Assembly: GCF_001429605.1 (NCBI RefSeq)
Contig: NZ_LMSS01000001.1
Location: 187,415 to 251,414 of the forward strand
DNA: 64,000 nucleotides
Direction of reading: 5' to 3'
Source: Phycicoccus sp. Soil802
Lineage (GTDB): Bacteria; Actinomycetota; Actinomycetes; Actinomycetales; Dermatophilaceae
Shown here: positions 1-64,000 of the stretch, in pieces
Layout: every line of letters begins with the position of its first letter
Position numbering within the stretch: the first letter of the stretch is position 1
Program-made: the position numbers and the translations under genes
The notes under the pieces: generated by a model
The model's input: the letters and a program-made list of their open reading frames with translations, nothing else
Databases searched by the model: none
Told to the model about the DNA's origin: nothing

Positions 1-3
1 AGC

Positions 4-867
4 ATGAAGTACGGCTTCGTGGTCCCGTTCGCCGATTCGCGCGAGTTCGCGGAGGTGGCAGTCCTCGGGGAGCAGCACGGCTGGGACGCCATCTTCACCT
101 GGGAGAGCCTCTACGGCGAGCACGCCTGGGTGACCCTGGCCGCAGCGGCGGTGCAGACCTCCCGCATCCGGCTAGGCACCCTCCTGACCCCGGCCTCACG
201 GCACCGGCCCTGGGACCTCGCCTCGATGGCCGGCTCCGTGGACCGGCTCAGCGGCGGACGCGTCGTGATGTCGGTCGGGCTCGGCGCGCTGCACTCGGGC
301 TGGACCCGGTTCGAGCCCGACGAGGGCCGTGCCGTGCGGGCCCGCAAGCTCGACGAGTCGCTGACGGTCTACCGCGGGTTGCTCTCGGGTGCGCCGTTCA
401 CGTTCGACGGCACCTACTACCCGGTGGGGCCGGAGGGGGCCGACGCCCCACCGACGCCGGCGCCCCCGCCCCAGCGCCCGCACCCACCGGTGTGGGTGGT
501 CGGAGCCTACCTGCCGGGCCGGGAGCGGCAGCCCTCGCTGGAGCGCGCGGCCCGGTGGCAGGGCGTCCTGCCGACGGTCGCGGTGCCCGACGCGAAGCCG
601 GGCAGCCCGCACCTCACCCTCGGCTCGGTCGGCGAGGCGCTGGGCGTCCTGCGCGGCCTGCGCGAGGAGTCGGGTCTGTCCTGGGACGGCTACGACGTCG
701 TCATCGAGGGCGACAGCACCGGTGAGTTCGTGAAGTCGGCGGGCACCCCGGCGCAGTGGGCGGGCATCGGCGCGACCTGGTGGGTCGAGAGCTGGTGGAG
801 CGTGGAGCCGGGCGCCGACGGGCTGGCCGAGATCCGGCGCCGGGTCCAGGCCGGCCCACCGGTCTAG
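4..867 (+). CDS. Luciferase-like (LLM class) flavin-dependent oxidoreductase
   Basis: This 287-residue protein has the bacterial luciferase / F420-dependent monooxygenase TIM-barrel pattern. The N-terminus MKYGFVVPFADSREFAEVA is followed by EQHGWDAIFTWES, then a conserved block with TSRIRLGTLLTPASRHRPWDLA and LSGGRVVMSVGLGA near residues 53-97, and the family-typical FTFDGTYYPV near residue 134. Members use FMN or F420H2 to oxidise or reduce varied small organics, so the substrate cannot be told. The ATG at position 4 opens the whole conserved N-terminus, so the gene looks complete although no upstream region is visible. It converges on the ABC ATPase gene with 6 bp between stops. Family is secure; the reaction is unknown. 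Confidence 0.85.
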   Translation: MKYGFVVPFADSREFAEVAVLGEQHGWDAIFTWESLYGEHAWVTLAAAAVQTSRIRLGTLLTPASRHRPWDLASMAGSVDRLSGGRVVMSVGLGALHSGWTRFEPDEGRAVRARKLDESLTVYRGLLSGAPFTFDGTYYPVGPEGADAPPTPAPPPQRPHPPVWVVGAYLPGRERQPSLERAARWQGVLPTVAVPDAKPGSPHLTLGSVGEALGVLRGLREESGLSWDGYDVVIEGDSTGEFVKSAGTPAQWAGIGATWWVESWWSVEPGADGLAEIRRRVQAGPPV

Positions 868-873
868 GGGCCG

Positions 874-2559
874 TCACCGGGAGGCGTGCGCCTCGACCGC
901 GGCCAGGACGTCGGTGACGCGCAGGAAGGGCAACGGGTGCATCACCTTGGCCACCTGCGGTGCGAACGCGGGGGAGTCGGCCAGCACCTGCCGCGCAGGT
1001 CCGTCCGCGATGACCTCACCCTCGGCGAGGAGCACGACCCGGGTGGCGACCTCGGCCGCGAGCTCCACGTCGTGGGTGGCGACCACCACGGCGCAGCCCG
1101 CGGCGGCCCGCTCGGCGAGGATCGTGGTGAGGCGGTCCTTGGCGGCGTAGTCGAGACCACGGGTGGGCTCGTCGAGCAGGAGCAGCGCGGTGCCGCGGGC
1201 GAGGACCAGGCTCAGGGCGACGGACATCCGCTGCCCCTCCGACAGGTCTGCCGTGCGGTGCCCGCGGAGGCCGTCGAGGCCGGGCGCGAGCCGGTCGAGC
1301 ACGGCGTGGGTCGTCCCGGACGCCAGGCCCTGGGCGGCGTCGTGCGCCGCCAGCTGCTTCGACACGGTCGCGTCGGCCAGGAGGTCCCCTGGGTCCTGGG
1401 GTGCCAGGGCAGCGGGCTCGGTCGCGACCACCCGACCGGACGTCGGCGACAGCGATCCGTCGAGGGTGGCGAGAAGGGTGGACTTGCCGGAGCCGTTGCG
1501 ACCCATCAGCGCGACGACCTCGCCGGGCGCGACGCGCAGGTCGACCGTGCGCAGCGCGATGACGGTGTCGCGCACGACGCTGAGCCGCCGCGCGTCGACG
1601 AGTGGGGCGGGGGTGGCTGCGGTGGTGGTGCGAGCGGAGGGGGTTGAGGACGCGGTCGTCGCCGCGCCGGTCGCCGCGGGGAGGGCCGAGCCGGCCACCG
1701 CGCGGGTCGCCGCGCCGGTGTGGGGGGCCGGTGCCGCAGCGGAGAGGTCGAGCGTGGACCTGAGGGTGCGGGCCGACCGCCGGGCCTCGCGCACGGACAG
1801 GGCAAGCCGGTGCCAGCCCAGCCGGAGCCCGAGCTCGACCACGGGCGGGCGGAGGGGCGAGTCCGCCATGGCCGCAGCCGGGTCGAGCGGTCCGCGCACC
1901 CGCCCGGACTCCACCAGCAGCACGGCATCGGCGTGGTGCACGACGCGCTCGAGCCGGTGCTCGGCCACCACCACGGTGGTGCCGACGTCGTGCACCAGGC
2001 GGTGCAGGATCGCCAGCACGTCCTCCGCGGCGACCGGGTCCAGGGCCGAGGTGGGCTCGTCGAGCACCAGCACCCGCGGTCCCGCGACGAGGGCCACTGC
2101 GATCGCCACCCGCTGCTGCTGGCCCCCGGACAGGTCGGCGACCGGTCGCGACCTCAGGTCGGCGATGCCGAGCAGGTCGAGGGTCTCCTCCACCTGGCGC
2201 TGACCGGCGTGAGCATCGGCGTCCCGAGCGCGCACTCCCGCGGCGATGACGGACTCCACCGTCCCGGCGCCGAGGGCGCCGGCGGGGTCCTGGGGCACCA
2301 GGCCGACGAGCGGCCGAGGACCGACCGGGTCGGCGGCGTGCAGGTCGGCCCCGTCGACCAGCACCCGGCCGGCGAGGCGGGCGGACGACTGGTCGGGGTC
2401 GCGGGCCAGGCCGGCGTCGAGGCACCGCAGGAGTGAGGACTTGCCCGACCCGGTCGGGCCGACGACGAGCAGCAGCTCACCCTCGGGGACCCCGAAGGTG
2501 ACGTCGCGCAGGACCGGCCGCGCGGCATACGCGAGGGTCACGCCCTCGAACTCGATCAC
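874..2559 (-). CDS. ECF/CbiO-type ABC transporter ATPase with two fused ATP-binding domains
   Basis: The 561-residue protein carries two complete ABC ATPase domains, the arrangement of fused EcfA1-EcfA2 ATPases of energy-coupling-factor vitamin or metal importers. Domain 1 has Walker A GPTGSGKSS (residues 34-42), signature LSGGQQQR and Walker B LVLDEPTSALDP. An Ala/Thr/Ser-rich linker of about 50 residues follows. Domain 2 has Walker A GRNGSGKST, a variant signature LSEGQRMS and Walker B LLLDEPTRGLD. No EcfT or S component is adjacent on either side, so the partner subunits must be elsewhere and the substrate is unknown. The GTG start at 2559 is chosen because a TAGGGT hexamer lies 7 nt upstream, which fits a leaderless transcript. 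Confidence 0.85.
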   Translation of the reverse strand: MIEFEGVTLAYAARPVLRDVTFGVPEGELLLVVGPTGSGKSSLLRCLDAGLARDPDQSSARLAGRVLVDGADLHAADPVGPRPLVGLVPQDPAGALGAGTVESVIAAGVRARDADAHAGQRQVEETLDLLGIADLRSRPVADLSGGQQQRVAIAVALVAGPRVLVLDEPTSALDPVAAEDVLAILHRLVHDVGTTVVVAEHRLERVVHHADAVLLVESGRVRGPLDPAAAMADSPLRPPVVELGLRLGWHRLALSVREARRSARTLRSTLDLSAAAPAPHTGAATRAVAGSALPAATGAATTASSTPSARTTTAATPAPLVDARRLSVVRDTVIALRTVDLRVAPGEVVALMGRNGSGKSTLLATLDGSLSPTSGRVVATEPAALAPQDPGDLLADATVSKQLAAHDAAQGLASGTTHAVLDRLAPGLDGLRGHRTADLSEGQRMSVALSLVLARGTALLLLDEPTRGLDYAAKDRLTTILAERAAAGCAVVVATHDVELAAEVATRVVLLAEGEVIADGPARQVLADSPAFAPQVAKVMHPLPFLRVTDVLAAVEAHASR

Positions 2560-2566
2560 GGTGCGA

Positions 2567-3405: not shown

Positions 3406-3411
3406 ACTGTA
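3406..3411 (-). promoter_or_regulatory. -10 element TACAGT for the DUF3043 gene
   Basis: On the minus strand TACAGT ends 6 nt before the GTG start at 3399, the spacing expected of a leaderless transcript. The hexamer is embedded in a GGCATAC word. Confidence 0.55.
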
Positions 3412-3515
3412 TGCCGTCGGAGCAGGTTCCCTTGAATCCGTGCCAGCGGGGGGCTCAGGGCACCCAGCGCAAGGTCGCACCGTCGGCCACGTGAATCCAC
3501 TCGCCACCCAGGCCT

Positions 3516-3649: not shown

Positions 3650-5014
3650 GTGACTGACGACGTGCTGACCGACGACCAGATCTCCACCCTCAGGGACACC
3701 GTTGCCGGCCTCATGCCGGGCCTGCGCACAGACCTCGAAGACCTCACCCGCATCCCGAGCGTGAGCCTCGACGCGTTCGACCAGGCCCATGTGGAGGCCA
3801 GCGCCGAGGCGACCGCCGCGCTGCTGCGGGCCGAGGGGCTCGACGTCGAGATCGTCCGCGAGGGGGGCCGCCCCGCCGTCATCGGGCACGTCGACGGACC
3901 CGAGGGTGCGCCGACCGTGCTGCTCTACGCCCACCACGACGTGCAGCCGCCCGGCGACGACCAGGACTGGGACAGCCCGCCCTTCGAGCCGACCGAGCGC
4001 GACGGCCGGCTCTACGGCCGGGGCGCCGCCGACGACAAGGCCGGGATCATGGCCCACCTCGCCGCGCTGCGGGCCCACGCCGGGGCCCTGCCGGTCGGCG
4101 TCACCGTCTTCGTCGAGGGCGAGGAGGAGATCGGCTCCGACTCGCTGCCGACCCTGCTGGAGAAGCACGGCGAGAAGCTGCGCGCCGATGCCATCGTGCT
4201 GGCCGACTCGACCAACTGGGCCATCGGCGAGCCCGCGCTCACGACCACCCTGCGTGGCCTGATCCGCGTCGTCGTGACCGTGACGACCCTCGACCACGGG
4301 GTGCACTCGGGCATGTTCGGCGGCGCCGTCCCCGATGCCCTGACCCCTCTGGTGCGGATCCTCGCCAGCCTCCACGACGACGCCGGCGACGTCGCCATCG
4401 CCGGGCTGAAGTCGGGCACGGCGAGCGACCTCGACTTCGACGAGGCCCGCCTGCGTGCGGAGTCGGGGCTGCTCGACGGTGTCGAGGTCATCGGCACCGG
4501 CAGCCTGCTCGACCGGATCTGGGCGAAGCCGACCGCCACCGTCATCGGCATCGACGCGCCGTCCGTCGCGAAGTCGTCGAACACCCTGGTGCCGAGTGCC
4601 AGCGCGAAGGTCTCCATCCGCCTTGCGCCCGACGAGGTCCCCCTCGAGGCGTATGCCGCGGTGCAGCGCCACATCGAGGCGAACACCCCGTGGGGCGCCC
4701 GGGTCGAGGTGCACCTCGACGACCAGGGCGCGGGGTTCGACGCGCACGCCGACGGCCCGGTCTACGACCAGGCGCGGGCCGCCTTCACCGACGCCTGGGG
4801 CGTCGTGCCCGTCGACATCGGCGTCGGCGGGTCGATCCCGTTCGTCGCCTCGTTCGCAGCGAAGTTCCCCGACGCGGCGATCCTCGTGACCGGCGTCGAG
4901 GATCCCGACACGCGGGCCCACGGCGCCAACGAGTCGCTGCACCTCGGGGAGTTCGAGAAGGTCTGTGTGGCCGAGGCCGTCCTCCTGGCCCGGCTCGGGG
5001 CCATGCCCCGGTGA
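3650..5014 (+). CDS. M20 family dipeptidase / metallopeptidase
   Basis: The 454-residue protein is an M20/M28-type di-zinc peptidase that would hydrolyse dipeptides or N-acyl amino acids in the cytosol. Metal-site motifs are visible in order: LLYAHHDVQPP (first His, Asp), GRGAADDKAG (bridging Asp), EGEEEIGSDS (catalytic and metal Glu), a LADSTN segment, and a C-terminal HGANESLHLGEF supplying the last His. The lid or dimerisation domain starts near LRVVVTVTTLDHGVHSG-like sequence at about residue 205. Length is normal. The GTG start follows TAGGCT by 7 nt. Its stop overlaps the GTG of the next gene (GTGA), so peptidase, glucosidase and the enoyl-reductase-like gene form one translationally coupled operon. 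Confidence 0.9.
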   Translation: MTDDVLTDDQISTLRDTVAGLMPGLRTDLEDLTRIPSVSLDAFDQAHVEASAEATAALLRAEGLDVEIVREGGRPAVIGHVDGPEGAPTVLLYAHHDVQPPGDDQDWDSPPFEPTERDGRLYGRGAADDKAGIMAHLAALRAHAGALPVGVTVFVEGEEEIGSDSLPTLLEKHGEKLRADAIVLADSTNWAIGEPALTTTLRGLIRVVVTVTTLDHGVHSGMFGGAVPDALTPLVRILASLHDDAGDVAIAGLKSGTASDLDFDEARLRAESGLLDGVEVIGTGSLLDRIWAKPTATVIGIDAPSVAKSSNTLVPSASAKVSIRLAPDEVPLEAYAAVQRHIEANTPWGARVEVHLDDQGAGFDAHADGPVYDQARAAFTDAWGVVPVDIGVGGSIPFVASFAAKFPDAAILVTGVEDPDTRAHGANESLHLGEFEKVCVAEAVLLARLGAMPR

Positions 5015-6393
5015 CCGAGTTCCCCGTCCTGCCCCGGGACTTCACCTTCGGGGTCGCCTCCGCGGCCTACCAGGTCGAGGGCGCCGTCAACGAGGACGGC
5101 CGCGGTCGCTCGGTCTGGGACACCTTCTGCGACAAGCCCGGAGCGATCGCGGGTGGGGAGAGCGGAGCCGTCGCCTGCGACCACTACCACCACTACCGCG
5201 AGGACGTGGCGCTGCTCAAGGTCCTCGGCGTCGACAGCTACCGGTTCTCGATCTCGTGGCCGCGCATCCTGCCCACCGGTGCCGGTGCGGTGAACGCCGC
5301 CGGGCTGGACTTCTACGACCGCTTGGTCGACGAGCTGCTCGACGCCGGCATCGAGCCGACGGCCACGCTCTTCCACTGGGACACCCCGCAGTCCCTCGAG
5401 GACCGCGGGGGATGGACCGGTCGCGAGATCACCGAGCACTTCGCGGCATACGCAGGGATCGTCGGTGAGCGGCTCGGTGACCGGGTGGCGCGGTGGATGC
5501 CGCTCAACGAGCCCAACGTCGTCACCATGCTGGGCTACGCGATCGGCAACCACGCGCCGGGCCGCTCGCTCGGGTTCGAGGCGCTGCCGGTCGTGCACCA
5601 CCTGCTCCTCGGGCACGGGCTCGCGACGCAGGCGCTGCGCGCGGCCGGCTGCCGCGAGATCGGCATCGCGAGCAACCACGCCCCCGTGTGGCCGGCCTCG
5701 CCGGAGCCGCAGGACGTGGAGGCGGCCCAGTTCTACGACAACCTCTGGAACTGGATGTTCGCCGACCCGGTGCTGCTCGGCCGCTACCCCGTCGAGGGCA
5801 CCGAGCAGGGCTTCCCGACCTACCGCGACGGCGACCTCCCCACCATCGCCCAGCCCCTCGACTGGTTCGGGATCAACTACTACAACCCCGCGCGCATCGG
5901 TGCGCCCGGGCTGGCGCCCGACAGCTCCCAGCTCGACGGCGCCGAGCTGCCGCCGGGGCTGCCGTTCGAGGCCCGCCGCATCGAGGGCTACGAGCGCACC
6001 GACTTCGACTGGCCGATCGTCCCGGACGGCCTGGCCCAGATCGTGCGTACCTTCCGCGACCGGTATGCCGCGCAGCTGCCGCCGCTGTACGTGACCGAGA
6101 GCGGCTGCTCGTTCCACGACGACCCCGTCGACGGTCGGGTGCGCGACCCGCGACGGATCGCCTACCACGACGCCCACCTGCGGGCACTGGCCGACGAGAT
6201 CCGCGACGGCGCCGACGTGCGCGGCTACTTCGCCTGGTCGGCGACCGACAACTTCGAGTGGGCGGCGGGCTACGCCGAGCGGTTCGGGCTGGTCCACGTC
6301 GACTACCGGACCCAGGTCCGCACCCCCAAGGACTCCTACCACTGGTACCGCGACCTCATCGCGCACACCCGAGCGAACGGAACGCAGTCATGA
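5011..6393 (+). CDS. Family GH1 beta-glucosidase
   Basis: The 460-residue product starts VTEFPVLPRDFTFGVASAAYQ and shows the GH1 signatures in order. These are FTFGVASAAYQVEGA, DHYHHYREDVALLK, YRFSISWPRI, LFHWDTPQSLE, WMPLNEPNVV with the acid/base Glu near residue 166, FGINYYNP, and YVTESGC with the nucleophile Glu near residue 364. A final WSATDNFEWAAGY block completes the barrel. It would hydrolyse beta-linked glucosides or galactosides in the cytosol, as no signal peptide is present. The GTG start overlaps the M20 peptidase stop. An in-frame upstream extension exists but is only read-through of the peptidase gene. The stop overlaps the ATG of the next gene. Confidence 0.95.
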   Translation: MTEFPVLPRDFTFGVASAAYQVEGAVNEDGRGRSVWDTFCDKPGAIAGGESGAVACDHYHHYREDVALLKVLGVDSYRFSISWPRILPTGAGAVNAAGLDFYDRLVDELLDAGIEPTATLFHWDTPQSLEDRGGWTGREITEHFAAYAGIVGERLGDRVARWMPLNEPNVVTMLGYAIGNHAPGRSLGFEALPVVHHLLLGHGLATQALRAAGCREIGIASNHAPVWPASPEPQDVEAAQFYDNLWNWMFADPVLLGRYPVEGTEQGFPTYRDGDLPTIAQPLDWFGINYYNPARIGAPGLAPDSSQLDGAELPPGLPFEARRIEGYERTDFDWPIVPDGLAQIVRTFRDRYAAQLPPLYVTESGCSFHDDPVDGRVRDPRRIAYHDAHLRALADEIRDGADVRGYFAWSATDNFEWAAGYAERFGLVHVDYRTQVRTPKDSYHWYRDLIAHTRANGTQS

Positions 6394-7640
6394 GCCCCAG
6401 CACCACCACCCGCACCCACGACGTCGTCGTCTTCGGGGCCACCGGCTTCGTCGGGCGCCTGGTCGCCGCCTACCTCGCGGAGCACGCACCCGCGGGCACC
6501 CGCATCGCCCTGGCCGGGCGCTCCGAGCGCCGGCTCGAGGAGGTGCGGTCGGGGCTGCCGGCCGCGGCCCGCGACTGGCCACTGGTCGTGGCTGACGCCG
6601 CTGACCCCGCCTCGCTGCGCGCCATGGCGGAGTCGACGACCGCGGTCGCGTCGACCGTCGGCCCCTACCTGCGCTACGGCCTGCCGCTGGTCGAGGCGTG
6701 CGCCGACGCAGGCACCCACTACGCCGACCTCACCGGTGAGGTGCTGTTCGTCCGCCGCGCGATCGACGCCGTCGACGCCCGCGCGCAGGAGACCGGCGCG
6801 CGCATCGTCACGGCCTGTGGCTACGACTCGATCCCGTCCGACCTCGGGGTGCACCTGCTGCACCAGCGTGCGGTCGCCGATGGCGCTGGCGCCCTGCTCG
6901 ACACGACCCTGCACGCCAAGTCGAAGGGCGGCCTGAGCGGCGGCACGATCGACTCCTCCCGGGCCCAGCTCGAGGCGGTGGCGGCCGACAGGTCGCTGCG
7001 CAAGGTCATCTTCGACGCCTACGCCCTCAGCCCCGACCGGGCCGCCGAGCCCGACCTGGGCAAGGAGCGCGACGCGAGCGCGGTCTTCGTGGACGCAGAG
7101 ACGGGCGACTGGGTCGGGCCGTTCATCATGGCCGGCTTCAACACCCGGATCGTGCGTCGTAGCAACGCCCTTCGCGACCACGCCTACGGCCGTCGGTTCC
7201 GCTACCGCGAGGTGAGCGCGTACGGCAAGGGGTTGCGTGGCCGCCGCCGGGCCACCGTCTTCACGGGGCTGCTGGGCCTGGCCTACGCCGGTCTGGCCCA
7301 CCCCCGCACCCGGCCGATCGTCGACCGCCTCGCCCCTTCGCCCGGCGAGGGACCGAGCGAGCAGGCCCGGTCGTCGGGGTGGTTCGCGATGAAGATCCGG
7401 ACCACCACGGAGACCGGCCGCCGCTACCTCGCCACCGTGGCCGCCCAGGGCGACCCCGGGTATGCCGCCACAGCCGTCATGCTCGGTGAGTCCGCGCTGT
7501 GCCTGGCCCTCGACGGTCCGTCGCTGCCAGCCGCCGCGGGCGTGCTCACCCCGTCGACCGCCATGGGTGACGCGCTGGTCGACCGGCTCCGCGCGCGGGA
7601 CTTCACGATGACCGTGGACGAGCTGCCCGACCGCCCCTGA
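6390..7640 (+). CDS. Trans-acting enoyl reductase / saccharopine dehydrogenase-like protein
   Basis: The 416-residue protein has an N-terminal Rossmann NAD(P) site (DVVVFGATGFVGRLVAAYL, residues about 10-28) followed by LAGRSERRLEEV and STVGPYLRYGLPLVEACADAGTHYADLTGE motifs. This pattern is typical of the saccharopine-dehydrogenase-like family that includes mycobacterial trans-acting enoyl reductases (Rv2449c/Rv2953 type). TACGYDSIPSDLG and SKGGLSGGTIDS follow. A moderately hydrophobic stretch near VFTGLLGLAYAGLA could bind membrane or lipid. No polyketide synthase is nearby, so the physiological substrate is open. ATG overlaps the GH1 stop (ATGA), marking it as the last gene of the M20-GH1 operon. 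Confidence 0.85.
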   Translation: MSPSTTTRTHDVVVFGATGFVGRLVAAYLAEHAPAGTRIALAGRSERRLEEVRSGLPAAARDWPLVVADAADPASLRAMAESTTAVASTVGPYLRYGLPLVEACADAGTHYADLTGEVLFVRRAIDAVDARAQETGARIVTACGYDSIPSDLGVHLLHQRAVADGAGALLDTTLHAKSKGGLSGGTIDSSRAQLEAVAADRSLRKVIFDAYALSPDRAAEPDLGKERDASAVFVDAETGDWVGPFIMAGFNTRIVRRSNALRDHAYGRRFRYREVSAYGKGLRGRRRATVFTGLLGLAYAGLAHPRTRPIVDRLAPSPGEGPSEQARSSGWFAMKIRTTTETGRRYLATVAAQGDPGYAATAVMLGESALCLALDGPSLPAAAGVLTPSTAMGDALVDRLRARDFTMTVDELPDRP

Positions 7641-10822: not shown

Positions 10823-10828
10823 ATCGTA
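10823..10828 (-). promoter_or_regulatory. nadA: -10 element TACGAT for nadA
   Basis: On the minus strand TACGAT ends 6 nt before the GTG at 10816. It is preceded by CGGCA, so it overlaps a GGCATAC word, as the DUF3043 promoter does. Confidence 0.6.
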
Positions 10829-10865
10829 TGCCGTGTGGTCTCGTGCCCGGCGCCGGCCGCCGGGC

Positions 10866-10878: not shown

Positions 10879-11658
10879 ATGGACGACGACCACGCGCTGG
10901 CCGCCCTGGGGACGGCGACCTCGGCGATGCTCGCCACGGTGCGCGCCGCTGACCTGGCAGCGGCGGTGCCGTCCTGCCCCGGCTGGTCCGTGACCGACCT
11001 CGTCGACCACCTCGGCCGGGTCCACCTCTGGGCCGCCCACAGCGCGCGCGAGGGCGCCCCTCCCGACCCCTACCCGCGGCGCGACCGCGACCAGCCACTC
11101 GCGGACTGGTATGCCGCGTGCGCCGAATCGATCGTGTCCACCCTGGCCGGGCTGCCTCCGGACCACCCCTCGTGGAGCTTCTCGGCGGACCCGGCCCACG
11201 GGACGGCGGGGTTCTGGCGTCGCCGCCAGTTCCACGAGACCACGGTGCACCACGTCGACGCGTTGCAGGCCGCTGGTCGCGTGCCGGTGTCCGGTCCGGT
11301 GGGGCAGGTCCCCGGCCTCACTCCACAGGAGGCGGCCGATGGCGTGGCGGAGGTGTTCGAGGTGATGGCTCCTCGCAGCCTGGTCCGTCACGCGGACCGC
11401 GCGCCCCTGGAGGTGATCCCCGCGCCTGAGCCGATCGCCTTGTGTTGCACCGACATCGAGGCGTCGTGGACCGTTCGGGTGGTCGAGGGAGCCGTCGTGC
11501 TCGTCGACGGGGTGGCGGAGGGAGCGGTCGCCCGGGTCAGTGGACCCGCGACCCAGCTCTACCTCTCGCTCTGGCACCGCGCCGATGCTGCCGAGCTCTC
11601 GGCGGACGGCGACGAGGCAGCCGCCCGCCGGCTGCTCGCTGCCGCCCTGGTGCCGTAG
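10879..11658 (+). CDS. Maleylpyruvate isomerase-family, mycothiol-dependent type protein
   Basis: The 259-residue product has the MDMPI/DinB-like helical N-terminal domain, with PSCPGWSVTDLVDHLGRVH near residues 36-54 and WRRRQFHETTVHHVDA near residue 117. The conserved His (in DHLGRVH) and the Glu/His pair (HETTVHH) are the expected divalent-metal ligands. The C-terminal part carries the sterol-carrier-like MDMPI C-terminal domain. Family members act as thiol-dependent isomerases or transferases with mycothiol, the main actinobacterial low-molecular-weight thiol. The substrate is unknown. Confidence 0.85.
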   Translation: MDDDHALAALGTATSAMLATVRAADLAAAVPSCPGWSVTDLVDHLGRVHLWAAHSAREGAPPDPYPRRDRDQPLADWYAACAESIVSTLAGLPPDHPSWSFSADPAHGTAGFWRRRQFHETTVHHVDALQAAGRVPVSGPVGQVPGLTPQEAADGVAEVFEVMAPRSLVRHADRAPLEVIPAPEPIALCCTDIEASWTVRVVEGAVVLVDGVAEGAVARVSGPATQLYLSLWHRADAAELSADGDEAAARRLLAAALVP

Positions 11659-14605: not shown

Positions 14606-15592
14606 GTGCAGATAGCCATCACGGGTTCCATCGCCACCGACCACCTGATGACCTTCAAGGGCAGGTTCCGCGACAGCCTCGTCGTCGAGCAGCTCGACAA
14701 GGTCTCGCTGTCGTTCCTCGCGGACGACCTCGAGGTCCGCCGGGGCGGGGTGGCCGCGAACATCGCGTTCGGCATGGCCAACCTCGGCCAGCGACCGATC
14801 CTCGTGGGGGCGGTGGGGGAGGACTTCGCCGACTACCGCAGCTGGCTCGAGCGCCACGGCGTCGACTGCCACTCGGTGCACGTGTCCGAGTCCAAGCACA
14901 CCGCCCGCTTCGTCTGCACCACGGACGAGGACATGGCCCAGATCGCCACCTTCTACGCCGGCGCGATGAGCGAGGCACGGGCCATCGAGCTCGACCCCAT
15001 CGCCCACCGCGTGGGCGGGCTCGACCTCGTCCTGGTCGGCGCCAACGACCCCGAGGCGATGCTGCGCCACACGCGCGAGTGCCGGTCCCGCGGCATACCG
15101 TTCGCGGCCGACCCGAGCCAGCAGCTCGCCTTCGCGGACGGCCAGACCATCCGCCAGCTCATCGACGGCGCGGACTTCCTGCTCACCAACGAGTACGAGG
15201 CGGCGTTGACCGAGCAGAAGACCGGCTGGGATGCCGACGAGATCGCCGACCGGGTGCACACCCGGGTCATCACGCGGGGCAAGGACGGCGTGTCCATCGA
15301 GCGCAAGGGCGAGGAGACCATCGAGGTCTCGGTCGCCCGCGAGGTGCGCCGAGCCGACCCGACCGGTGTCGGTGACGCGTTCCGGGCCGGCTTCCTCACC
15401 GGCCTGGCGGCCGACCTGGGGCTGCGGCACTCCGCCGAGCTCGGGTCGATGCTGGCGACGTACGTCATCGAGACCGTGGGCACCCAGGAGTACACGCTGG
15501 GCAAGGCGAGCTTCCTCCAGCGGCTGGCGGACGCCTACGGCCAGGAGTCGGCGGACGCCATCGAACCCCACATCGCCTGCATCGCCCCGTAG
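14606..15592 (+). CDS. adoK: PfkB-family carbohydrate kinase, probable adenosine kinase
   Basis: The 328-residue kinase starts VQIAITGSIATDHLMTFKGR. It has the PfkB substrate motif RRGGVAANIAFGMANLGQRP near residues 45-64, the LTNEYEAALT strand, and the ATP/catalytic motif ADPTGVGDAFRAGFLTGLA near residue 250 with the catalytic Asp in GVGDAF. Similarity in style and position to M. tuberculosis Rv2202c (AdoK), located between the erpA/glycerate kinase pair and ctaC, suggests adenosine kinase. Ribokinase-like sugar kinases cannot be excluded from motifs alone. The stop is 14 nt before aat, so the two are probably cotranscribed. Confidence 0.85.
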   Translation: MQIAITGSIATDHLMTFKGRFRDSLVVEQLDKVSLSFLADDLEVRRGGVAANIAFGMANLGQRPILVGAVGEDFADYRSWLERHGVDCHSVHVSESKHTARFVCTTDEDMAQIATFYAGAMSEARAIELDPIAHRVGGLDLVLVGANDPEAMLRHTRECRSRGIPFAADPSQQLAFADGQTIRQLIDGADFLLTNEYEAALTEQKTGWDADEIADRVHTRVITRGKDGVSIERKGEETIEVSVAREVRRADPTGVGDAFRAGFLTGLAADLGLRHSAELGSMLATYVIETVGTQEYTLGKASFLQRLADAYGQESADAIEPHIACIAP

Positions 15593-53510: not shown

Positions 53511-54212
53511 ATGATCCCCAACCAGCCGACACCCACCACAGCGCGACCCCCGAAGTCGCGCGTGCTCCTCGTCGTCCTCCTCGCCGCGGTCGCCGCCGGA
53601 GTCGTGGCCCTCTCGCCGGTCGAGCTGCGCCACGAGGTCCACACCGTGCCCCGCCCCGGGGTTGCGTCGCAGACCTCGCTGACGCCGCCTCGCGCCGCGA
53701 TGGTCCCGGCCGCTGACGACGGTCAGGCGGGTCGGGACCCGCGGAGCGTGCCGACCTCGGTGCCCGGCGAGGGCTCCGTGGGCCCGGGCGGCGCGGTCTT
53801 CGACGACAGCAGTGCGACGGTGGCCAACCTCGACCCCGCGCTGCTGGACGCCCTCCGGACCGCCGCGACGGCGGCCCTCGACGACGGCGTCGAGCTGCAC
53901 GTCAACAGCGGCTGGCGCTCGGCGGCCGAGCAGGAGCGGCTGCTCGAGCAGGCGGTGGCGGAGTACGGGTCGGTGAAGGAGGCCAGACGCTGGGTGGCCA
54001 CCCCGAAGACGTCGGCGCACGTGTCCGGCGATGCCGTCGACCTCGGCCCGTCGGAGGCTGCGCGCTGGCTCGCGCGGCACGGCGCGGCCTACGGGCTGTG
54101 CCAGATCTACCGGAACGAGCCCTGGCACTTCGAGCTGCGACAGGGTGCCGCGCTCGACGGCTGTCCATCGATGTATGCCGACCCCACCCAGGACCCACGG
54201 ATGACGCGATGA
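53511..54212 (+). CDS. VanY-like D-Ala-D-Ala carboxypeptidase
   Basis: The 233-residue protein has a Sec-type signal anchor (SRVLLVVLLAAVAAGVVALS) and a spacer. A M15-family zinc peptidase domain follows: ELHVNSGWRSAAEQERLLEQ, TSAHVSGDAVDLGPSEAARW (zinc His and Asp) and RNEPWHFELRQG (catalytic Glu not adjacent, zinc His). It removes the terminal D-Ala from peptidoglycan precursors outside the membrane. The ATG overlaps nothing upstream and is 88 bp from the regulator. Its stop overlaps the VanZ-like ATG, so both are produced together. The VanY domain is close to the minimal length. Confidence 0.9.
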   Translation: MIPNQPTPTTARPPKSRVLLVVLLAAVAAGVVALSPVELRHEVHTVPRPGVASQTSLTPPRAAMVPAADDGQAGRDPRSVPTSVPGEGSVGPGGAVFDDSSATVANLDPALLDALRTAATAALDDGVELHVNSGWRSAAEQERLLEQAVAEYGSVKEARRWVATPKTSAHVSGDAVDLGPSEAARWLARHGAAYGLCQIYRNEPWHFELRQGAALDGCPSMYADPTQDPRMTR

Positions 54213-56182: not shown

Positions 56183-57250
56183 ATGCCGCCCAGCGCACCA
56201 CCCGTGCACGTCGACCTGCTCTCCGACACCCTCACCAAGCCCACCGACGCGATGCGACGCGCGATGGCCGGTGCGCCGGTCGGCGACGACGTCTTCGGCG
56301 AGGACCCGACGGTCCGGCGGCTCGAGGAGCGGGTGGCCGAGCTGCTCGGCCACGAGGACGCCCTCTTCGCACCGACCGGGTCGATGGCCAACCAGCTCTG
56401 CCTACGACTGCACGTCGGCCACGGCGAGGAACTGGTCGCTGACTCGCTCGCGCACGTCCTGCGCGCCGAGATGGGCGCTGCCGCAGTGCTCTCCGGCATC
56501 TCGTCGCGGTCGTGGGTGGCCGAGCACGGCCTGCTCGACGCTGCGCAGCCGCTGGCCCTGATGATCCCCGACGGCGGCACCTACCAGGTCAACACCCGGC
56601 TGGTCGTGGTCGAGAACACCCACAACTTCGGCGGCGGCACGGTCCAGCCGCTCGACCAGATCGAGGCCCTGCGCGCCGGCACCCGCGACCGGGGAGTCGC
56701 GATGCACCTCGACGGCGCCCGCCTCTGGAACGCCCACGTCGCCACCGGTGTCCCGCTCGACACCTACGGCCGGCTGTTCGACACGGTGAGCGTCTGCCTG
56801 TCCAAGGGCCTCGGCGCCCCCGTCGGGTCCGTGCTGGCCGGGTCGCGCGAGCTGATGGCCAGCGCCCGGATCTGGCGCAAGCGGTTCGGCGGCGGCATGC
56901 GCCAGGTCGGCATCCTCGCGGCGGCCGGCCTGCACGCCCTCGACCACCACCTCGAGCGACTGGCCGACGACCACGCCCGGGCCCGCCGGTTCGCCGAGGC
57001 GGCAGCAGCGGCGGCTCCCGGGTCGATCGACCCGCAGCGGGTGCAGACCAACATCGTCGTCCTCGACGTGGCCGGAGCCGGGTGGACTCCCGCGGCCTTC
57101 GTCGAGGAGGCGGGCCGACGCGGCATACGCCTCTATCCCGTGAGCACGACTGCGGTGCGGCTGGTCTGGCACCTCGACGTCGACGACGTTGGCACCGACC
57201 TCGCCATCACCGAGCTGGTCCCGCTGCTGGCCGACGGTCCGACGAGCTGA
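56183..57250 (+). CDS. Low-specificity L-threonine aldolase family protein
   Basis: The 355-residue PLP enzyme begins with the family motif VHVDLLSDTLTKPTDAMRRA, then APVGDDVFGEDPTVRRLEER, LFAPTGSMANQLCLRLHV, VVVENTHNFGGGTVQPLDQI, and MHLDGARLWNAHVATGVPLD with the PLP Asp. DTVSVCLSKGLGAPVGSVLA supplies the Schiff-base Lys. It cleaves L-threonine or L-allo-threonine to glycine and acetaldehyde. It starts 4 nt after aroG and is probably cotranscribed, and it converges on the EamA transporter gene. Confidence 0.95.
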   Translation: MPPSAPPVHVDLLSDTLTKPTDAMRRAMAGAPVGDDVFGEDPTVRRLEERVAELLGHEDALFAPTGSMANQLCLRLHVGHGEELVADSLAHVLRAEMGAAAVLSGISSRSWVAEHGLLDAAQPLALMIPDGGTYQVNTRLVVVENTHNFGGGTVQPLDQIEALRAGTRDRGVAMHLDGARLWNAHVATGVPLDTYGRLFDTVSVCLSKGLGAPVGSVLAGSRELMASARIWRKRFGGGMRQVGILAAAGLHALDHHLERLADDHARARRFAEAAAAAAPGSIDPQRVQTNIVVLDVAGAGWTPAAFVEEAGRRGIRLYPVSTTAVRLVWHLDVDDVGTDLAITELVPLLADGPTS

Positions 57251-58195: not shown

Positions 58196-60154
58196 TCAGA
58201 CGACGACGAGCTTGATGGTGCTGCCCTTGGGCTGTTCGGTGTTGGCGCCGGGCTCCTGGCTGCGGACGGTGCCGAAGATGCCGCCCATGAAGCGCTCCAC
58301 GACGACCTTGAACCCCGCGCCCTCGAGGATCGCCTTGGCCTCGGCCTCCTGCTTGCCCTGCACGTCGGGCACCTTGACCAGGACCGGGCCCTTGGAGACC
58401 ACGAGCTTGACCGGGTCGCCCTTGAAGAGGGTGCCACCGGCCGGCGACTGGGAGATCACGTTGCCCTTGGCCACGGTGTCGCTGTTGGCCTGCTCGGTGG
58501 CGTCGACCTCGAGCCCGGCCTTGGACAGCGCGTCGACCGCCTCGCTGGCGGGCTTGTTGGTGAAGTCGGTGACCTGGATCGGCTGACGGCCCTTCGAGAC
58601 CACGAGGTTGACCTTGGTGCCGCGCTTGAGCTGCGTGCCGACCTTCGGGTCGACGCCCACCACGAGACCGGCGGCGATGCTGTCGTCGAAGGCCTCCTTG
58701 GTGGTGCCGACGGTGAGCTTGGCCGCGGTGATCTGGTCCCGCGCCTCGGCTGCGGACTTCTTGACGACGTTCGGCACGGCATACCGCTCCGGGCCCTTGG
58801 ACACGGTGACCTTGACGTCGGTGCCGCGGCGGACCTCCTGGCCGGCGCCCGGGTCGGTCGACATGACGATGCCCTTGGGCACCGACTCGTCGAAGCTCTC
58901 CACCTGCTCGGCGCCGAGGTGCGCGCGCTCGAGGGCGGTCTGCGCCTGCGCGAAGGTGAGCTTGGTCGTCTGCGGCACCACGGTGGGCGAGCCCGGGCCG
59001 GCCAGGAACCACCACGCGGCGAGGCCGGCGACCAGGGCGACCCCGAGGGCGGCCCAGATCCACCGCCAGGGTCCGCGGCGCTCGTCCTCGTCGTAGGTGT
59101 CGACGACGCGGCCGTGCAGCACCGGGGGAGTGGTCGGGGTGCGGTCGATCGGGAGCGCCACCGGGGGGAGCGGTCGGGCGCCCTGCGCGACGTGCCGCGG
59201 CTCGTGCTGCACCGGCAGCGCGCTGGTCCGCTCGACGGCCACCGTGCTCGCGCCACCACCCAGGGCGGCCGGGCCCTCGGGGCGACGGTCCAGCTCGGTG
59301 GCGGTCAGCATCGCGCGCGACTTGCGGACCTCGGCGAGGAAGTCCTCGGCGTCGTGGGGCCGCTGGTCGGGGTCGCGGGAGGTGGCCAGCGCCACCAGGG
59401 CGTCGAGCTCGCTCGGCACCGAGCTCACCCGCGAGGAGGGAGCCGGGATCGAGCCGTGCACGTGCTGGTAGGCGATGTGGATCGGCGTGTCGCCGGTGAA
59501 CGCCTTGGTGCCGGTCAGCATCTCGAACAGGATCAAGCCGGCGGCGTAGACGTCGCTGCGGGCGTCGGCGATGCCGCGCTCGACCTGTTCGGGGGACAGG
59601 TAGGCCACCGTGCCGAGCAGGACGCCGGTCTGGGAGTGCGAGGTCTGGTTGGAGACCGCCCGGGCGAGCCCGAAGTCGGCCACCTTCACGGTGCCGTCGC
59701 CCTCACGCAGGATGATGTTCTCGGGCTTGACGTCGCGGTGGATGATGCCGCCCCGGTGCGCGGCGCCGAGCGCCTGTAGCACCGGACCCATGATGTCGAG
59801 GGTGGCTCGCGGGGTGAGCGGGCCCTCGGCCTTCATCACCTCACGCAGCGTCTGGCCGGGCACGTACTCCATGGCCAGGAACATGTGCCCGTCGTCCTCG
59901 CCCTGGTCGAAGACCGACACGACGTTGGGGTGCGAGAGCCGGGCGGCGGAGCGCGCCTCGCGCTTGAACCGGCTGACGAAGGCGTCGTCCTGGGCCAGGT
60001 CGTGACGCAGCACCTTGAGGGCCACGTCGCGGTCGAGCCGGGTGTCGAGGGCAAGGTAGACCGACGCCATTCCACCGTCGGCAATGTGCGACAGGACGCG
60101 GTAACGCCCGTCGAACACACGACCGAGCAACGACTCGGTGACACCTGAAGACAC
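58196..60154 (-). CDS. pknL: PASTA-domain serine/threonine protein kinase at the pknL locus
   Basis: The 652-residue kinase has a cytosolic kinase domain: IADGGMASVYLALDTRLDRD (Gly loop), DVALKVLRHDLAQDD with the ATP Lys, HRDVKPENIILREGDGTVKV with catalytic Asp, and DFGLARAVSNQTSHSQTGVL with activation-loop Ser/Thr. A linker, one helix (WRWIWAALGVALVAGLAAWW) and four extracytoplasmic PASTA repeats follow, which sense peptidoglycan or lipid II. M. tuberculosis PknL lacks PASTA repeats as I recall, whereas corynebacterial PknL has them. GTG at 60154 follows TACACT by 6 nt; an ATG at 60184 is the longer alternative. Confidence 0.93.
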   Translation of the reverse strand: MSSGVTESLLGRVFDGRYRVLSHIADGGMASVYLALDTRLDRDVALKVLRHDLAQDDAFVSRFKREARSAARLSHPNVVSVFDQGEDDGHMFLAMEYVPGQTLREVMKAEGPLTPRATLDIMGPVLQALGAAHRGGIIHRDVKPENIILREGDGTVKVADFGLARAVSNQTSHSQTGVLLGTVAYLSPEQVERGIADARSDVYAAGLILFEMLTGTKAFTGDTPIHIAYQHVHGSIPAPSSRVSSVPSELDALVALATSRDPDQRPHDAEDFLAEVRKSRAMLTATELDRRPEGPAALGGGASTVAVERTSALPVQHEPRHVAQGARPLPPVALPIDRTPTTPPVLHGRVVDTYDEDERRGPWRWIWAALGVALVAGLAAWWFLAGPGSPTVVPQTTKLTFAQAQTALERAHLGAEQVESFDESVPKGIVMSTDPGAGQEVRRGTDVKVTVSKGPERYAVPNVVKKSAAEARDQITAAKLTVGTTKEAFDDSIAAGLVVGVDPKVGTQLKRGTKVNLVVSKGRQPIQVTDFTNKPASEAVDALSKAGLEVDATEQANSDTVAKGNVISQSPAGGTLFKGDPVKLVVSKGPVLVKVPDVQGKQEAEAKAILEGAGFKVVVERFMGGIFGTVRSQEPGANTEQPKGSTIKLVVV

Positions 60155-60268: not shown

Positions 60269-61588
60269 TCACATGCGGGCGCGGTGCGCCTTGATGCTGG
60301 CCACGTAGACCTTGGTGTCGGCGTACATGCCGTGCGTCTGCACCGAGTAGAGGCCCTGGTAGTACCCGGCGATCGCCTGGTCGAGGTTCTTCGCCGAGCG
60401 GGTCAGGGAGCGCAGGATGACGACACCGGCAGTGATGTTGTCCTGGGTGCGCAGCAGGTTGAGCGGGCGACCGGCCATGTCCGAGGCCCACTGCCCCGAG
60501 GAGGGGATGACCTGCATGACGCCGATGGCGTTGGCGACCGAGACCTGCCGCTGGTTCCAGCCGGACTCCTGCCACCCGACGGCGAGCGCCAGCTTGGGGT
60601 CCACACCGTGCCGACGGGCCGTCGCGATGATCATGGCCTTCGTCTGGCTGCGGCTCGGCACGGAGGTCCTGGCCAGCGCGGCACGGTTGCGGTTGGCCGC
60701 GTTGACCGTCGAGCGGGGGTAGGTGCGTCCCGCGAAGGTGTTGGAGCTCGCCGCGCTCTTGGCCGGCTTGGCGGGCACCCGGAGCCGCTGGCCCGGGTGG
60801 ATGACCGAGCGTGCCGACAGGTGGTTGGTCTTGAGCAGGGCCGCGAGGGTGGTGCCGTGCTTCACGGCGATGCCGCTCAGGGTGTCGCCCGGGCGGACCG
60901 TGTATGCCGCGGAGCCGGCCCGCCGGGTCGCCGCCGGAGTCGTCCCGCGCACCTTGATGAGCTGGCCCGGGTGGATGACGCTGCGGGCGCTCAGGTGGTT
61001 CAGGGAGTAGACGGTCGCGAGGGACGTCCTGGTGCGGGCGGCGATGGCGCTGAGGGTGTCGCCGCTGCGCACCCGGTAGGTGGTGGTCGACACCGTCCGG
61101 GCGGTGGGTCGGCTCGCATGGGCGGCGCCGGCACCGGGGATCCGGATCTTCTGGCCGACCTGCAGGACCGAACGGGTCGACAGCCGGTTGGCCTTGAGCA
61201 GGGCCGCGAGCGAGACGCCCTTGCGGACCGCGATGTGGCTGAGGGTGTCCCCGGAGCGCACGACGTAGGTGGCCCGCTTGATCGCGGCGGCACGCGCTGC
61301 TGCTGCTGCCCTCGCCCGGGCGGCCTCGGCCCGCGCCTGGGCGGCGGTCTTCGGCACGGAGAGGCGCTGGCCGATGGAGAGGTGGTTGCCGCCACCCCTG
61401 AGGTGGTTGCGCGACGCGAGCACGCCGGTGGTGGTGCCCGTCCGGTCGGCGATGGCGGCGAGGGTGTCGCCACTGCGCACCGTGTAGGTGGTCCAGCCGT
61501 GCGGGGCGGGCTTGGCCCTCTGCACGACTGCGACCGGCGCCTGGAGGGTGGCCGAAGGGAGCGCTGCGGGAGCGATCACTGGAGACAT
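60269..61588 (-). CDS. LysM-repeat protein with lytic transglycosylase domain
   Basis: The 439-residue protein has four LysM repeats (TYTVRSGDTLAAIADRTGTT, TYVVRSGDTLSHIAVRKGVS, TYRVRSGDTLSAIAARTRTS, AYTVRPGDTLSGIAVKHGTT) separated by Ala/Thr-rich linkers. A C-terminal SLT/lysozyme-like domain follows with LALAVGWQESGWNQRQVSVA, where the catalytic Glu is in QES, and AIGVMQVIPSSGQW. It should bind and cleave peptidoglycan. The chosen ATG at 61588 gives a weak, uncharged N-terminus (MSPVIAPAALPSATLQAPVA) with no clear signal peptide. That is odd for a secreted enzyme, and the true start may differ. It is divergent from the Rv2175c-like gene and lies upstream of pknL on the same strand. Confidence 0.88.
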   Translation of the reverse strand: MSPVIAPAALPSATLQAPVAVVQRAKPAPHGWTTYTVRSGDTLAAIADRTGTTTGVLASRNHLRGGGNHLSIGQRLSVPKTAAQARAEAARARAAAAARAAAIKRATYVVRSGDTLSHIAVRKGVSLAALLKANRLSTRSVLQVGQKIRIPGAGAAHASRPTARTVSTTTYRVRSGDTLSAIAARTRTSLATVYSLNHLSARSVIHPGQLIKVRGTTPAATRRAGSAAYTVRPGDTLSGIAVKHGTTLAALLKTNHLSARSVIHPGQRLRVPAKPAKSAASSNTFAGRTYPRSTVNAANRNRAALARTSVPSRSQTKAMIIATARRHGVDPKLALAVGWQESGWNQRQVSVANAIGVMQVIPSSGQWASDMAGRPLNLLRTQDNITAGVVILRSLTRSAKNLDQAIAGYYQGLYSVQTHGMYADTKVYVASIKAHRARM

Positions 61589-62211: not shown

Positions 62212-62216
62212 GCCCC

Positions 62217-62310: not shown

Positions 62311-62321
62311 GGGGCGAGGGG

Positions 62322-63410
62322 TCAGTTGGCTCGGCTGGTCGCGCTGTCGATCAGCTGGTCGAGCACGCCGGTCGCCTCGGGCGACAGGTCACGCGTCGAC
62401 TTCAGGGCCATCCGTGCCGACCCCGCGAGGCGGGCGATGTCGGCCTCCACGGCGTCGACGGCCCCGGCCGCGGTGATGGCGTCGCGCAGCCGCTGGACGA
62501 CCTCGTCGTCGAGGGTCGGGTCGCCGAGCCGGCTCTCGATGAGCTCGCGCCCTGCGTCGTCCGCCCCGGCCAGGGCGTGGGCGACCAGCACGGTGCGCTT
62601 GCCCTCGCGCAGGTCGTCGCCCGCGGGCTTGCCGGTGGCCGCCGGGTCGCCGAAGACGCCCAGCAGGTCGTCGCGCAGCTGGAAGGCCTGCCCGAGGTCG
62701 AGCCCGTAGCGCGACAGCGCGGCGAGGTCGTCGTCCGAGGCGCCGCCGGCGGTCGCGCCGATGAGGAGGGGGTGCTCGACCGTGTACTTGGCGCTCTTGA
62801 ACCGGATCACGTGCTCAGCCCGCTCGACCCGCTCGCTGGTGGGCACGCCGTCCCAGGACCGGGCGGACTCCACGACGTCGAGGAACTGGCCACCCATCAG
62901 CTGGGTGCGCATCCGGTCGAAGACGCCACGCCCGCGCTCGAGGTGGTCCGGATCGAGGCCGGACGTCGCGTAGATCTCCTCGGTCCAGTTGAGGCACAGG
63001 TTGCCGGCCAGGATCGCCCCGGCCACCCCGAACCGGGTGGCGTCGCCCGACCAGGACTCGCGCTCGTGTCGCGCCGCGAGCGAACGGTGCGCAGCCGGCA
63101 TACCCCGTCGGGTGTCGCTGTCGTCCATGACGTCGTCGTGGATCAACGCGGCCGCCTGGAAGAACTCCATCGCGGTCGCGACGCGGACCACGGCGTCGGA
63201 GTCGGGCTGGCCCGCGGCGCGGTAGCCCCAGTAGAGGAAGGCGGCCCGGAGCCGCTTGCCGCCGGTGAGCAGGCGGGCGACGGCGCCGAGCAGCTCCTGG
63301 GCGTCGGGGCCCACCTCGGCGAGGACGGTCGCCTGGTGGGCGAGGACGTCGTCGACCGTGGCCTGGACCCGCTCACGCAGGGAGGCGGCGTCGAGCGGGC
63401 TGGTCACCAC
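62322..63410 (-). CDS. Polyprenyl (geranylgeranyl-type) diphosphate synthase
   Basis: The 362-residue prenyltransferase has the two Asp-rich motifs: ALIHDDVMDDSDTRRGMPAA (first, DDxxxD form) and FQLRDDLLGVFGDPAATGKP (second, DDxxxD-like). GGKRLRAAFLYWG near residue 54 contributes Lys/Arg for the isopentenyl diphosphate. It extends allylic diphosphates, making C15-C20 or longer chains for carotenoids, quinones or carriers. It matches Rv2173 (IdsA2) in position. Start ATG or GTG at 63410; no -10 hexamer is obvious nearby. Confidence 0.93.
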   Translation of the reverse strand: MVTSPLDAASLRERVQATVDDVLAHQATVLAEVGPDAQELLGAVARLLTGGKRLRAAFLYWGYRAAGQPDSDAVVRVATAMEFFQAAALIHDDVMDDSDTRRGMPAAHRSLAARHERESWSGDATRFGVAGAILAGNLCLNWTEEIYATSGLDPDHLERGRGVFDRMRTQLMGGQFLDVVESARSWDGVPTSERVERAEHVIRFKSAKYTVEHPLLIGATAGGASDDDLAALSRYGLDLGQAFQLRDDLLGVFGDPAATGKPAGDDLREGKRTVLVAHALAGADDAGRELIESRLGDPTLDDEVVQRLRDAITAAGAVDAVEADIARLAGSARMALKSTRDLSPEATGVLDQLIDSATSRAN

Positions 63411-63488
63411 GCGTTCCTCCCAGGCGGCTGTCGGTCCGAGGATGTCTCATCCTGTGCTGGCCCCGAGCCTACGGCGTGACGCCTCGAC

Positions 63489-63494
63489 TAGTCT
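63489..63494 (+). promoter_or_regulatory. -10 element TAGTCT for the MetF-like gene
   Basis: TAGTCT ends 7 nt before the ATG at 63502, a leaderless spacing. Confidence 0.6.
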
Positions 63495-63501
63495 CACCGC
63501 C

Positions 63502-64000
63502 ATGGCTTTGGTGCACACGTCACGCGACGGGCGACCGGGGAGGGAGCCGCAGTCGATCCCCGGCATGCTGGCCGCCGACCACCCGTCGATCAGCTTCGAG
63601 TTCTTCCCGCCGAAGGACGACGCGGGGGAGTCGGTGCTCTGGGACGCCATCCGGCGGCTGGAGTCGGTCCGGCCCGACTTCGTGTCGGTCACCTACGGCG
63701 CCGGCGGCTCGAACCAGGACCGCACCGTGCGGGTCACCGAGCGGATCGCCCGCGAGACCACGCTGACCCCGCTGGCCCACCTCACCTGCGTGGGCGCGTC
63801 GGTCGCCGCGCTGCGCCAGGTGGTCGGGCTGTATGCCGCGAGCGGCGTCCGCAACATCCTCGCCCTGCGCGGTGACCCGCCGGGCGACCCCGGCGGCGAG
63901 TGGACCGCGCACCCCGAGGGCCTCAACCACGCGACCGACCTGGTCGAGCTCGTGCGGACCCTGGGCGACTTCACCATCGGCGTCGCGGCGTTCCCGGACG
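63502..64000 (+). CDS. 5,10-methylenetetrahydrofolate reductase (MetF-like), 5' part
   Basis: Only the first 166 codons are in the window. The start MALVHTSRDGRPGREPQSIP leads into SISFEFFPPKDDAGESVLWD (the catalytic Glu in FEFFPPK), then FVSVTYGAGGSNQDRTVRVT and LAHLTCVGASVAALRQVV. VRNILALRGDPPGDPGGEWT follows, the FAD and folate-binding loops of MTHFR. It would supply 5-methyl-THF for methionine synthesis. It occupies the Rv2172c position of the mycobacterial order. ATG at 63502 follows TAGTCT by 7 nt. Confidence 0.9.
   Translation, partial: MALVHTSRDGRPGREPQSIPGMLAADHPSISFEFFPPKDDAGESVLWDAIRRLESVRPDFVSVTYGAGGSNQDRTVRVTERIARETTLTPLAHLTCVGASVAALRQVVGLYAASGVRNILALRGDPPGDPGGEWTAHPEGLNHATDLVELVRTLGDFTIGVAAFPD

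Follow-up and report, generated by a model that had tools for sequence, protein, structure and literature searches.

A conserved octamer with one-base dialects, probably a DNA-uptake-like signal, in a family of actinobacteria

Uptake sequences are named for two bacterial families, the Neisseriaceae and the Pasteurellaceae, in the accessible part of a review (PMC5031613), and the accessible part of another study reports even spacing for such sequences (PMC1939737). A screen for a DNA uptake sequence (DUS) in Veillonella returned, in the text available, no sequence of at least 10 bp repeated 100 times (PMC5397411), and transformation of Micrococcus luteus is reported, in the sections available, to require both tad-1 and tad-2 (PMC4322843). 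Here we report on the octamer GTATGCCG in a 64,000-nucleotide stretch of an actinobacterial genome (G000:C1:187415-251414, the whole of which we call the window; host genome G000, 4.29 Mb), an octamer that, judged on genomic evidence, appears to work like a DUS. We consider it probable, at roughly two chances in three, that GTATGCCG is a DUS-like self-recognition signal of the host's family, and, with the same confidence, that it most probably represents a new uptake signal among Gram-positives. Among the literature matches listed, no title for the exact word GTATGCCG dealt with a bacterial genome motif, and none of the matches concerned uptake sequences in actinobacteria or Gram-positives; this absence is weak evidence because only open-access papers were covered.

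The octamer in the window and along the chromosome

The original prediction held that GTATGCC/GGCATAC is greatly over-represented relative to GTACGCC/GGCGTAC, and its count of 33 copies of the T-form was exact (17 on the plus strand and 16 on the minus strand, with the sites it quoted right to within 1-3 bases); the C-form, put at about seven copies, occurs 10 times (22046, 23266, 27399, 30748, 31720, 40875, 48795, 55179, 55311 and 60320). A G follows every one of the 33 copies of the T-form and 5 of the 10 of the C-form, and the true unit is therefore the octamer GTATGCCG, which is the top octamer in the window, with 33 copies observed and 0.7 expected under a second-order Markov model. Our distribution statistics for the host cover 464 kb of its 4.29 Mb (sampled stretches plus the window), where 249 copies stand against 6.2 expected under the Markov model (about 40 times over). 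The excess is upheld in the whole genome, which holds 1,143 + 1,098 = 2,241 copies compared with 51 of a reversed-pattern control.

The excess also survives a codon-shuffled model. When synonymous codons were shuffled in the 63 genes of the window, the 28 coding copies compared with 3.2 ± 1.9 (maximum 9 in 100 shuffles), and in the 464 kb, 188 coding copies compared with 16.4 ± 3.7 (11 times over), with gene calls from our own codon-score script, which was trained on the same sample that it scored. CTATGCC shows no matching excess and stays near the codon-shuffle expectation (4 versus 2.6 in the window, 15 versus 15.8 in the 464 kb). The claim that the motif forces rare codons stands for TAT, about half of whose occurrences lie inside the motif (16 of 26 in the window, 102 of 203 in the 464 kb), and is weaker for GCA (5 of 115 and 48 of 1,027). 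The two coding frames that had been proposed proved too few, as the window uses five (with 16, 5, 3, 2 and 2 copies) and the 464-kb sample six, Tyr-Ala being the commonest. The copies of GTATGCCG in the window are these:

2523..2530, minus strand, coding
3409..3416, plus strand, intergenic
4651..4658, plus strand, coding, Tyr-Ala frame
5444..5451, minus strand, coding, antisense, GCA-TAC frame
6063..6070, plus strand, coding
7460..7467, plus strand, coding
10826..10833, plus strand, intergenic
11109..11116, plus strand, coding
12281..12288, minus strand, coding, antisense
15091..15098, minus strand, coding, antisense
16327..16334, plus strand, coding, antisense
17498..17505, minus strand, coding
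21766..21773, minus strand, coding, antisense
21901..21908, plus strand, coding, Met-Pro frame
24140..24174, no strand, inverted pair of copies in an intergenic gap, with perfect 15-base arms, a terminator-like stem-loop 14 bp from the stop of the gene at 24189-25958 (minus strand)
24140..24147, plus strand, left arm of this pair
24167..24174, minus strand, right arm of this pair
31897..31904, minus strand, coding
32281..32288, minus strand, coding
35278..35285, minus strand, coding
36578..36585, plus strand, intergenic
39387..39394, plus strand, coding, antisense
39673..39680, minus strand, coding
42313..42320, minus strand, coding, antisense
44204..44211, plus strand, coding
45978..45985, plus strand, coding
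47814..47821, minus strand, coding
50109..50116, plus strand, coding
54173..54180, plus strand, coding
57121..57128, minus strand, coding, antisense
58777..58784, minus strand, coding
60902..60909, plus strand, coding, antisense
63096..63103, minus strand, coding
63831..63838, plus strand, coding

Across the 464 kb, 190 copies are coding and 59 intergenic, which corresponds to 0.458 per kb in genes and 1.206 per kb between them. The word is shared almost equally by the two strands (129:120; r = -0.28 with GC skew, n = 20 regions), and its copies are more evenly spaced than at random, with a coefficient of variation of the gaps of 0.744 versus 0.965 ± 0.060 (209 gaps, pairs within 60 bp collapsed). 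Neighbours within 60 bp of each other are mostly inverted (14 "+-", 2 "-+", 3 "--" and 1 "++"); the "+-" pairs are intergenic in 11 cases, and in 10 of these the pair lies, by our own gene calls, at a distance of 4-30 bp from a flanking stop codon and forms a hairpin like that at 24140-24174. We also observed a 29-base near-perfect palindrome with the octamer at both ends, GTATGCCGCGTGGTNACCACGCGGCATAC (for example at G000:C1:69448-69476), which resembles a repetitive extragenic palindromic element or a terminator. It is present in 8 copies in the host, 7 in G002 and 0-5 in 13 other genomes, and the host copies in the sample are mostly intergenic and close to stop codons.

A defence island in the first 20 kb of contig 1 holds no GTATGCCG at all, compared with about 10.7 copies expected at the mean density of the sample. 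This contig end (L087, G000:C1:1-20000) has a GC content of 65% versus 71% and encodes a BREX PglX-like protein (in two open reading frames) with BrxL, a TnsB-like transposase with an AAA ATPase, GmrSD and an AbiV-type nuclease (a REase-AbiV fusion).

Carriers, dialects and conservation in the family

The ComEA protein of the host has its best named match in Pedococcus bigeumensis and its next in Knoellia koreensis, which suggests a Pedococcus-like member of the family that we take to be the Intrasporangiaceae (Dermatophilaceae in GTDB). We counted GTATGCCG and two one-base variants, GGATGCCG and GTACGCCG, in 60 whole genomes from 50 genera of this family, one genome per genus except for the genus of the host, five of the genomes being 58-84% complete. 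The density of GTATGCCG is bimodal, with 37 of the 60 genomes at 156-1,125 copies per Mb and the other 23 at 81 per Mb or less; the presence thresholds were chosen after the counts had been seen, the two GTATGCCG groups lying well apart (at most 81 versus at least 156 per Mb) and two dialect genomes lying near their respective cut-offs (G029, GTACGCCG, 209 per Mb; G011, GGATGCCG, 382 per Mb). All 10 congeners of the host are rich in the word (625-3,986 copies), and named carriers with 1,971-3,986 copies include five Terrabacter genomes, Terracoccus sp., Knoellia koreensis, K. aerolata and Pedococcus bigeumensis. Janibacter indicus and J. anophelis remain at background (18 and 22 copies). Altogether, 35 of the 50 genera carry GTATGCCG or one of the dialects, and 15 carry none of the three. 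Beyond the family, no excess of GTATGCCG was found in 38 genomes from other families of the order (top count 167, control 184) or in a class sample of 143 genomes outside the family (top count 386 in 7.5 Mb, control 176).

The dialect words emerged from k-mer lists of GTATGCCG-poor genomes that were made without naming them, on 20-100 kb sampled from each genome. In whole genomes, GGATGCCG reaches 3,949 copies in G036, 3,816 in G026, 2,195 in G053 and 1,336 in G011, and GTACGCCG reaches 3,903 in G049, 2,618 in G057, 2,216 in G033 and 1,359 in G034. Two words occur at once in three genomes, namely GTATGCCG with GTACGCCG in the host congeners G009 and G010 and GTATGCCG with GGATGCCG in G053. Read by eye, a tree of LeuS and ComEC shows GTATGCCG from the family's base onward; GTACGCCG belongs mainly to a single clade, GGATGCCG turns up at two or more points, and absence occurs at about seven. 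The tree covers part of the family genomes (46 of 53 sequences, the 7 without LeuS in the sampled piece being omitted), includes a single outgroup and is given without support values.

Other words were seen to be in excess in some samples. In G030 (L123, G030:C11:1-20000), GTATGCGG occurs 9 times in 20 kb versus 0.5 expected and is a possible fourth dialect, and in G046, from a genus without GTATGCCG, CGAAGGGGG is over-represented as well (41 versus 2.4 expected in 80 kb; L111, L112, L143, L144). The G034 sample (L061, L062, L128, L129, L130) has, beside GTACGCCG/GTACGCCC, an excess of GTATCGAGA (11 versus 0.2) and CGTATCGAG (12 versus 0.7), and the G006 sample (L212, L213) contains a local repeat with GGGTCAGTCCGG, whose 8-9-mers appear 13-16 times in 34 kb.

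Between species, the word is conserved. In a 40-kb region around comEC, 71 of 89 aligned host sites are intact in G001-G006 at 78-83% nucleotide identity, compared with 24-35% of control octamers with three A/T, and across seven motif-rich congeners GTATGCCG is kept in 462 of 651 ordered comparisons. Among the comparison octamers in those congeners, GTACGCCG keeps 6 of 79 and 11 of 12 others keep 0-34%, the exception being CTACGTCG (98 of 182). The poorer congeners G007-G010 retain 22 of 66 sites in the same 40-kb region, and G007 and G008, which have fewer copies, show sites with scattered changes. Homologues in congeners with a single mismatch differ at positions 1 to 7: position 4, at which the original prediction had suggested looking for C/T polymorphism in relatives, is the commonest place of a single difference (98 of 202; in the main frame, C and T at this base are synonymous), and the other 104 differences fall elsewhere. 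The whole word is thus maintained, as opposed to change at one base. Just two polarised private gains of GTATGCCG could be derived in the 40-kb region, too few for use.

Swaps from GTATGCCG to GTACGCCG were seen at 16 of 86 aligned sites between G014 and four GTACGCCG-type genomes, compared with 1 of 45 in the four comparisons with motif-less genomes. These swaps are weak evidence, because some homologous sites carry GTACGCCG even where the genome is of another dialect (2 of 8, 2 of 14 and 2 of 12). Sites of GGATGCCG lie mostly at new places.

A proposed uptake signal and its rivals

A word that is non-palindromic, strand-neutral, evenly spread and conserved, and that comes with dialects, mixed genomes and absences, is best explained as an uptake signal. 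We propose that a surface DNA receptor would bind the octamer on DNA from lysed kin, this receptor probably being either a minor pilin from a Tad/Flp competence pilus or a pilus partner, for example ComEA, and that the bound DNA would pass through ComEA/ComEC and recombine via DprA/RecA. Fragments with the octamer would then enter more often, so that alleles carrying it would be copied in and maintained, and the driving force might be such uptake-driven biased conversion, perhaps together with selection. A shift of receptor specificity by one base, gradually followed by the genome, may have given rise to the dialects GTATGCCG, GGATGCCG and GTACGCCG, and where the system was lost, the copies would decay. 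With rather less assurance, and only slightly inclining toward it, we extend this proposal as follows: sequence-specific uptake of self-DNA would have arisen independently for a third time, in single-membrane, high-GC Gram-positives; the word would be read by a Tad/Flp competence pilus or by a partner of it, and one-base dialects, three or more in number, would split the whole family into DNA-exchange groups.

Competence machinery is encoded in the host. A comEA gene (SLBB plus helix-hairpin-helix) directly precedes comEC, dprA is present, and two tad clusters are built like tad-1 and tad-2 of M. luteus: L150 comprises tadA, B and C, a 69-amino-acid pilin-like protein, two TadE-like proteins and one Tad/TadG-like protein, and L151 comprises a TadZ-like protein, tadA/B/C candidates, a DUF4244 Flp-like pilin and TadE-like and TadF-like proteins, part of these proteins having been checked against Pfam and the remainder named from position and size. 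A third cluster (L149) is of Flp type. In G005 (G005:C1:1517076-1517881), comEC matches in two pieces despite 2,537 copies of GTATGCCG, from either a recent loss or a sequencing error.

Several observations weigh against the proposal of an uptake signal. Of 96 genomes, 90 have comEC, and all 58 searched for T2SSE (pilus) ATPases have them, whether they carry the motif or not; tad clusters are present in both motif-less genomes that were read (G018 and G020). Since comEC and Tad genes thus also occur in motif-less genera, no receptor is identified from them. None of the genes examined (comEC, T2SSE ATPase, PilM, tad) follows the distribution of the motif, nor did a receptor, or a residue that varies with dialect, come to light. 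Among the genomes sampled, inverted pairs are frequent in the host only, 12 others having 0-4 among 26-130 copies of their own word, and the comparison with foreign DNA rests on one island. At 8 bases, GTATGCCG is shorter than the DUS (12) and the uptake signal sequence (USS) of Pasteurellaceae (9), going by the accessible part of the review (PMC5031613). Finally, no study of natural transformation in the host family was among the literature matches listed. The machinery therefore permits the uptake hypothesis and does not explain which genera carry the word.

The most durable of the alternatives, which we nevertheless regard as unlikely, is a chromosomal signal bound inside the cell, either a Chi-like recombination site or a motif for chromosome architecture or segregation, with a coevolving DNA-binding protein that could allow for dialects. 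It would be in line with a word that is genome-wide, evenly spaced, conserved and family-specific, but the lack of the word in 15 of 50 genera fits poorly with a core chromosome function, and the near-equal strand counts and the correlation with GC skew given above lend no support to strand polarity. Chi and FtsK-orienting polar sequences (KOPS) are polar, and both were rejected as candidates, there being no polarity along the strands.

Just behind it, and likewise improbable, comes an iterated octamer like cyanobacterial HIP1, kept by DNA methylation or by another process that has nothing to do with uptake. HIP1, too, is a single octamer at very high abundance, according to the part of the source available (PMC4390886), and the methyltransferase gene that the original prediction called for has candidates, as the host matches the 5-methylcytosine methyltransferase family PF00145 at two places. 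Against this, HIP1 is palindromic with internal methyltransferase sites, GTATGCCG is not palindromic, and 16 of the 39 motif-bearing genomes searched have no PF00145 match in this survey, which covers the 5-methylcytosine family and not adenine or N4 methylases.

The original prediction had offered, besides a positive signal, two processes acting at a single base, in which a methylated C of GTACGCCG is lost to T by deamination, or GTACGCC stays rare because it is a restriction site. These processes can point to the coding copies of GTACGCCG in the 464 kb, about half of those expected by codon shuffle (32 versus 68.7), to the low C-form density of several T-form-rich genomes (25-32 per Mb in G014, G021, G052 and G056) and to the prevalence of changes at position 4. 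Yet in the coding part of the 464 kb, the two forms together reach 188 + 32 = 220 copies versus 85 expected by codon shuffle, and conversion of methylated C cannot supply the excess because about 37 missing C-forms face about 172 surplus T-forms; nor could avoidance build an octamer that stands some 40-fold above the Markov model and 11-fold above the shuffles. The C-form is not low under the Markov model (34 versus 30.0), and GTACGCC without the following G is about equally low by codon shuffle (37 versus 64). The T-form excess depends on the eighth base, G. Single differences are spread over positions 1 to 7, and sister dialects enrich GTACGCCG or GGATGCCG, with GTACGCCG itself abundant in G033, G057 and G049. 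The distribution of 5-methylcytosine methyltransferases likewise speaks against decay as the main cause, 16 of the 39 motif-bearing genomes lacking a PF00145 match, even though the host matches at two places. As a whole explanation, decay or avoidance is refuted by the counts, in which T-form gain exceeds C-form loss and changes reach beyond one base, and as the main cause we deem it highly improbable; it is the positive signal, third of the options first proposed, that our results support. An artefact of codon usage, codon pairs or composition, to which only the lead of the Tyr-Ala frame speaks, is refuted by the synonymous-codon shuffle and by a word that uses six frames and is densest between genes, and we give it practically no credence.

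Should the proposal of an uptake signal be correct, password-guarded DNA exchange would have evolved again, in Actinomycetota, with a different envelope and pilus. The dialects, mixed genomes and losses would then offer a family-wide natural experiment on the purpose of uptake specificity, and many of these genera may be naturally transformable, which would provide a practical handle for their genetics.

Comparison with described systems

The DUS of Neisseriaceae are the closest parallel. In the accessible part of the study describing them, their copies number from hundreds to thousands and lie both within genes and between them, their dialects follow phylogeny, with one genome holding two dialects, and inverted pairs are tied to terminators (PMC3630211); the same holds for GTATGCCG, as regards the inverted pairs in the host genome. 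In contrast, GTATGCCG is an unrelated 8-bp sequence in an actinobacterial host, its proposed uptake bias is a prediction from genomic patterns, and inverted pairs are rare in the other genomes sampled. Of the 60 family genomes, 2 have the type IVa protein PilM (PilM_2) and the host is not one of them, ComP itself not having been searched for; with this type of pilus apparently absent, a pilus other than that of Neisseria would be needed.

With the USS of Pasteurellaceae, GTATGCCG shares the character of a short word at high density and an even spacing of the kind reported for uptake sequences (PMC1939737), and differs from it in its unrelated sequence and in the envelope and pilus of its host; the USS receptor is itself merely predicted, as ComN, in the accessible part of a recent source (PMC12616744). 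Cyanobacterial HIP1 (GCGATCGC) is palindromic and, according to the text available, linked to two orphan methyltransferases (PMC4390886), unlike the non-palindromic GTATGCCG. What the two have in common is that each is a strongly over-represented octamer of unsettled role. M. luteus, a member of another family than the host, resembles it in having comEA/comEC together with two tad clusters of similar build for its Flp/Tad transformation. The terms "uptake sequence", "uptake signal" and "sequence-specific" are absent from the main text of the study on M. luteus (PMC4322843), and it is in this respect that the host, with its probable self-recognition word, differs from it.

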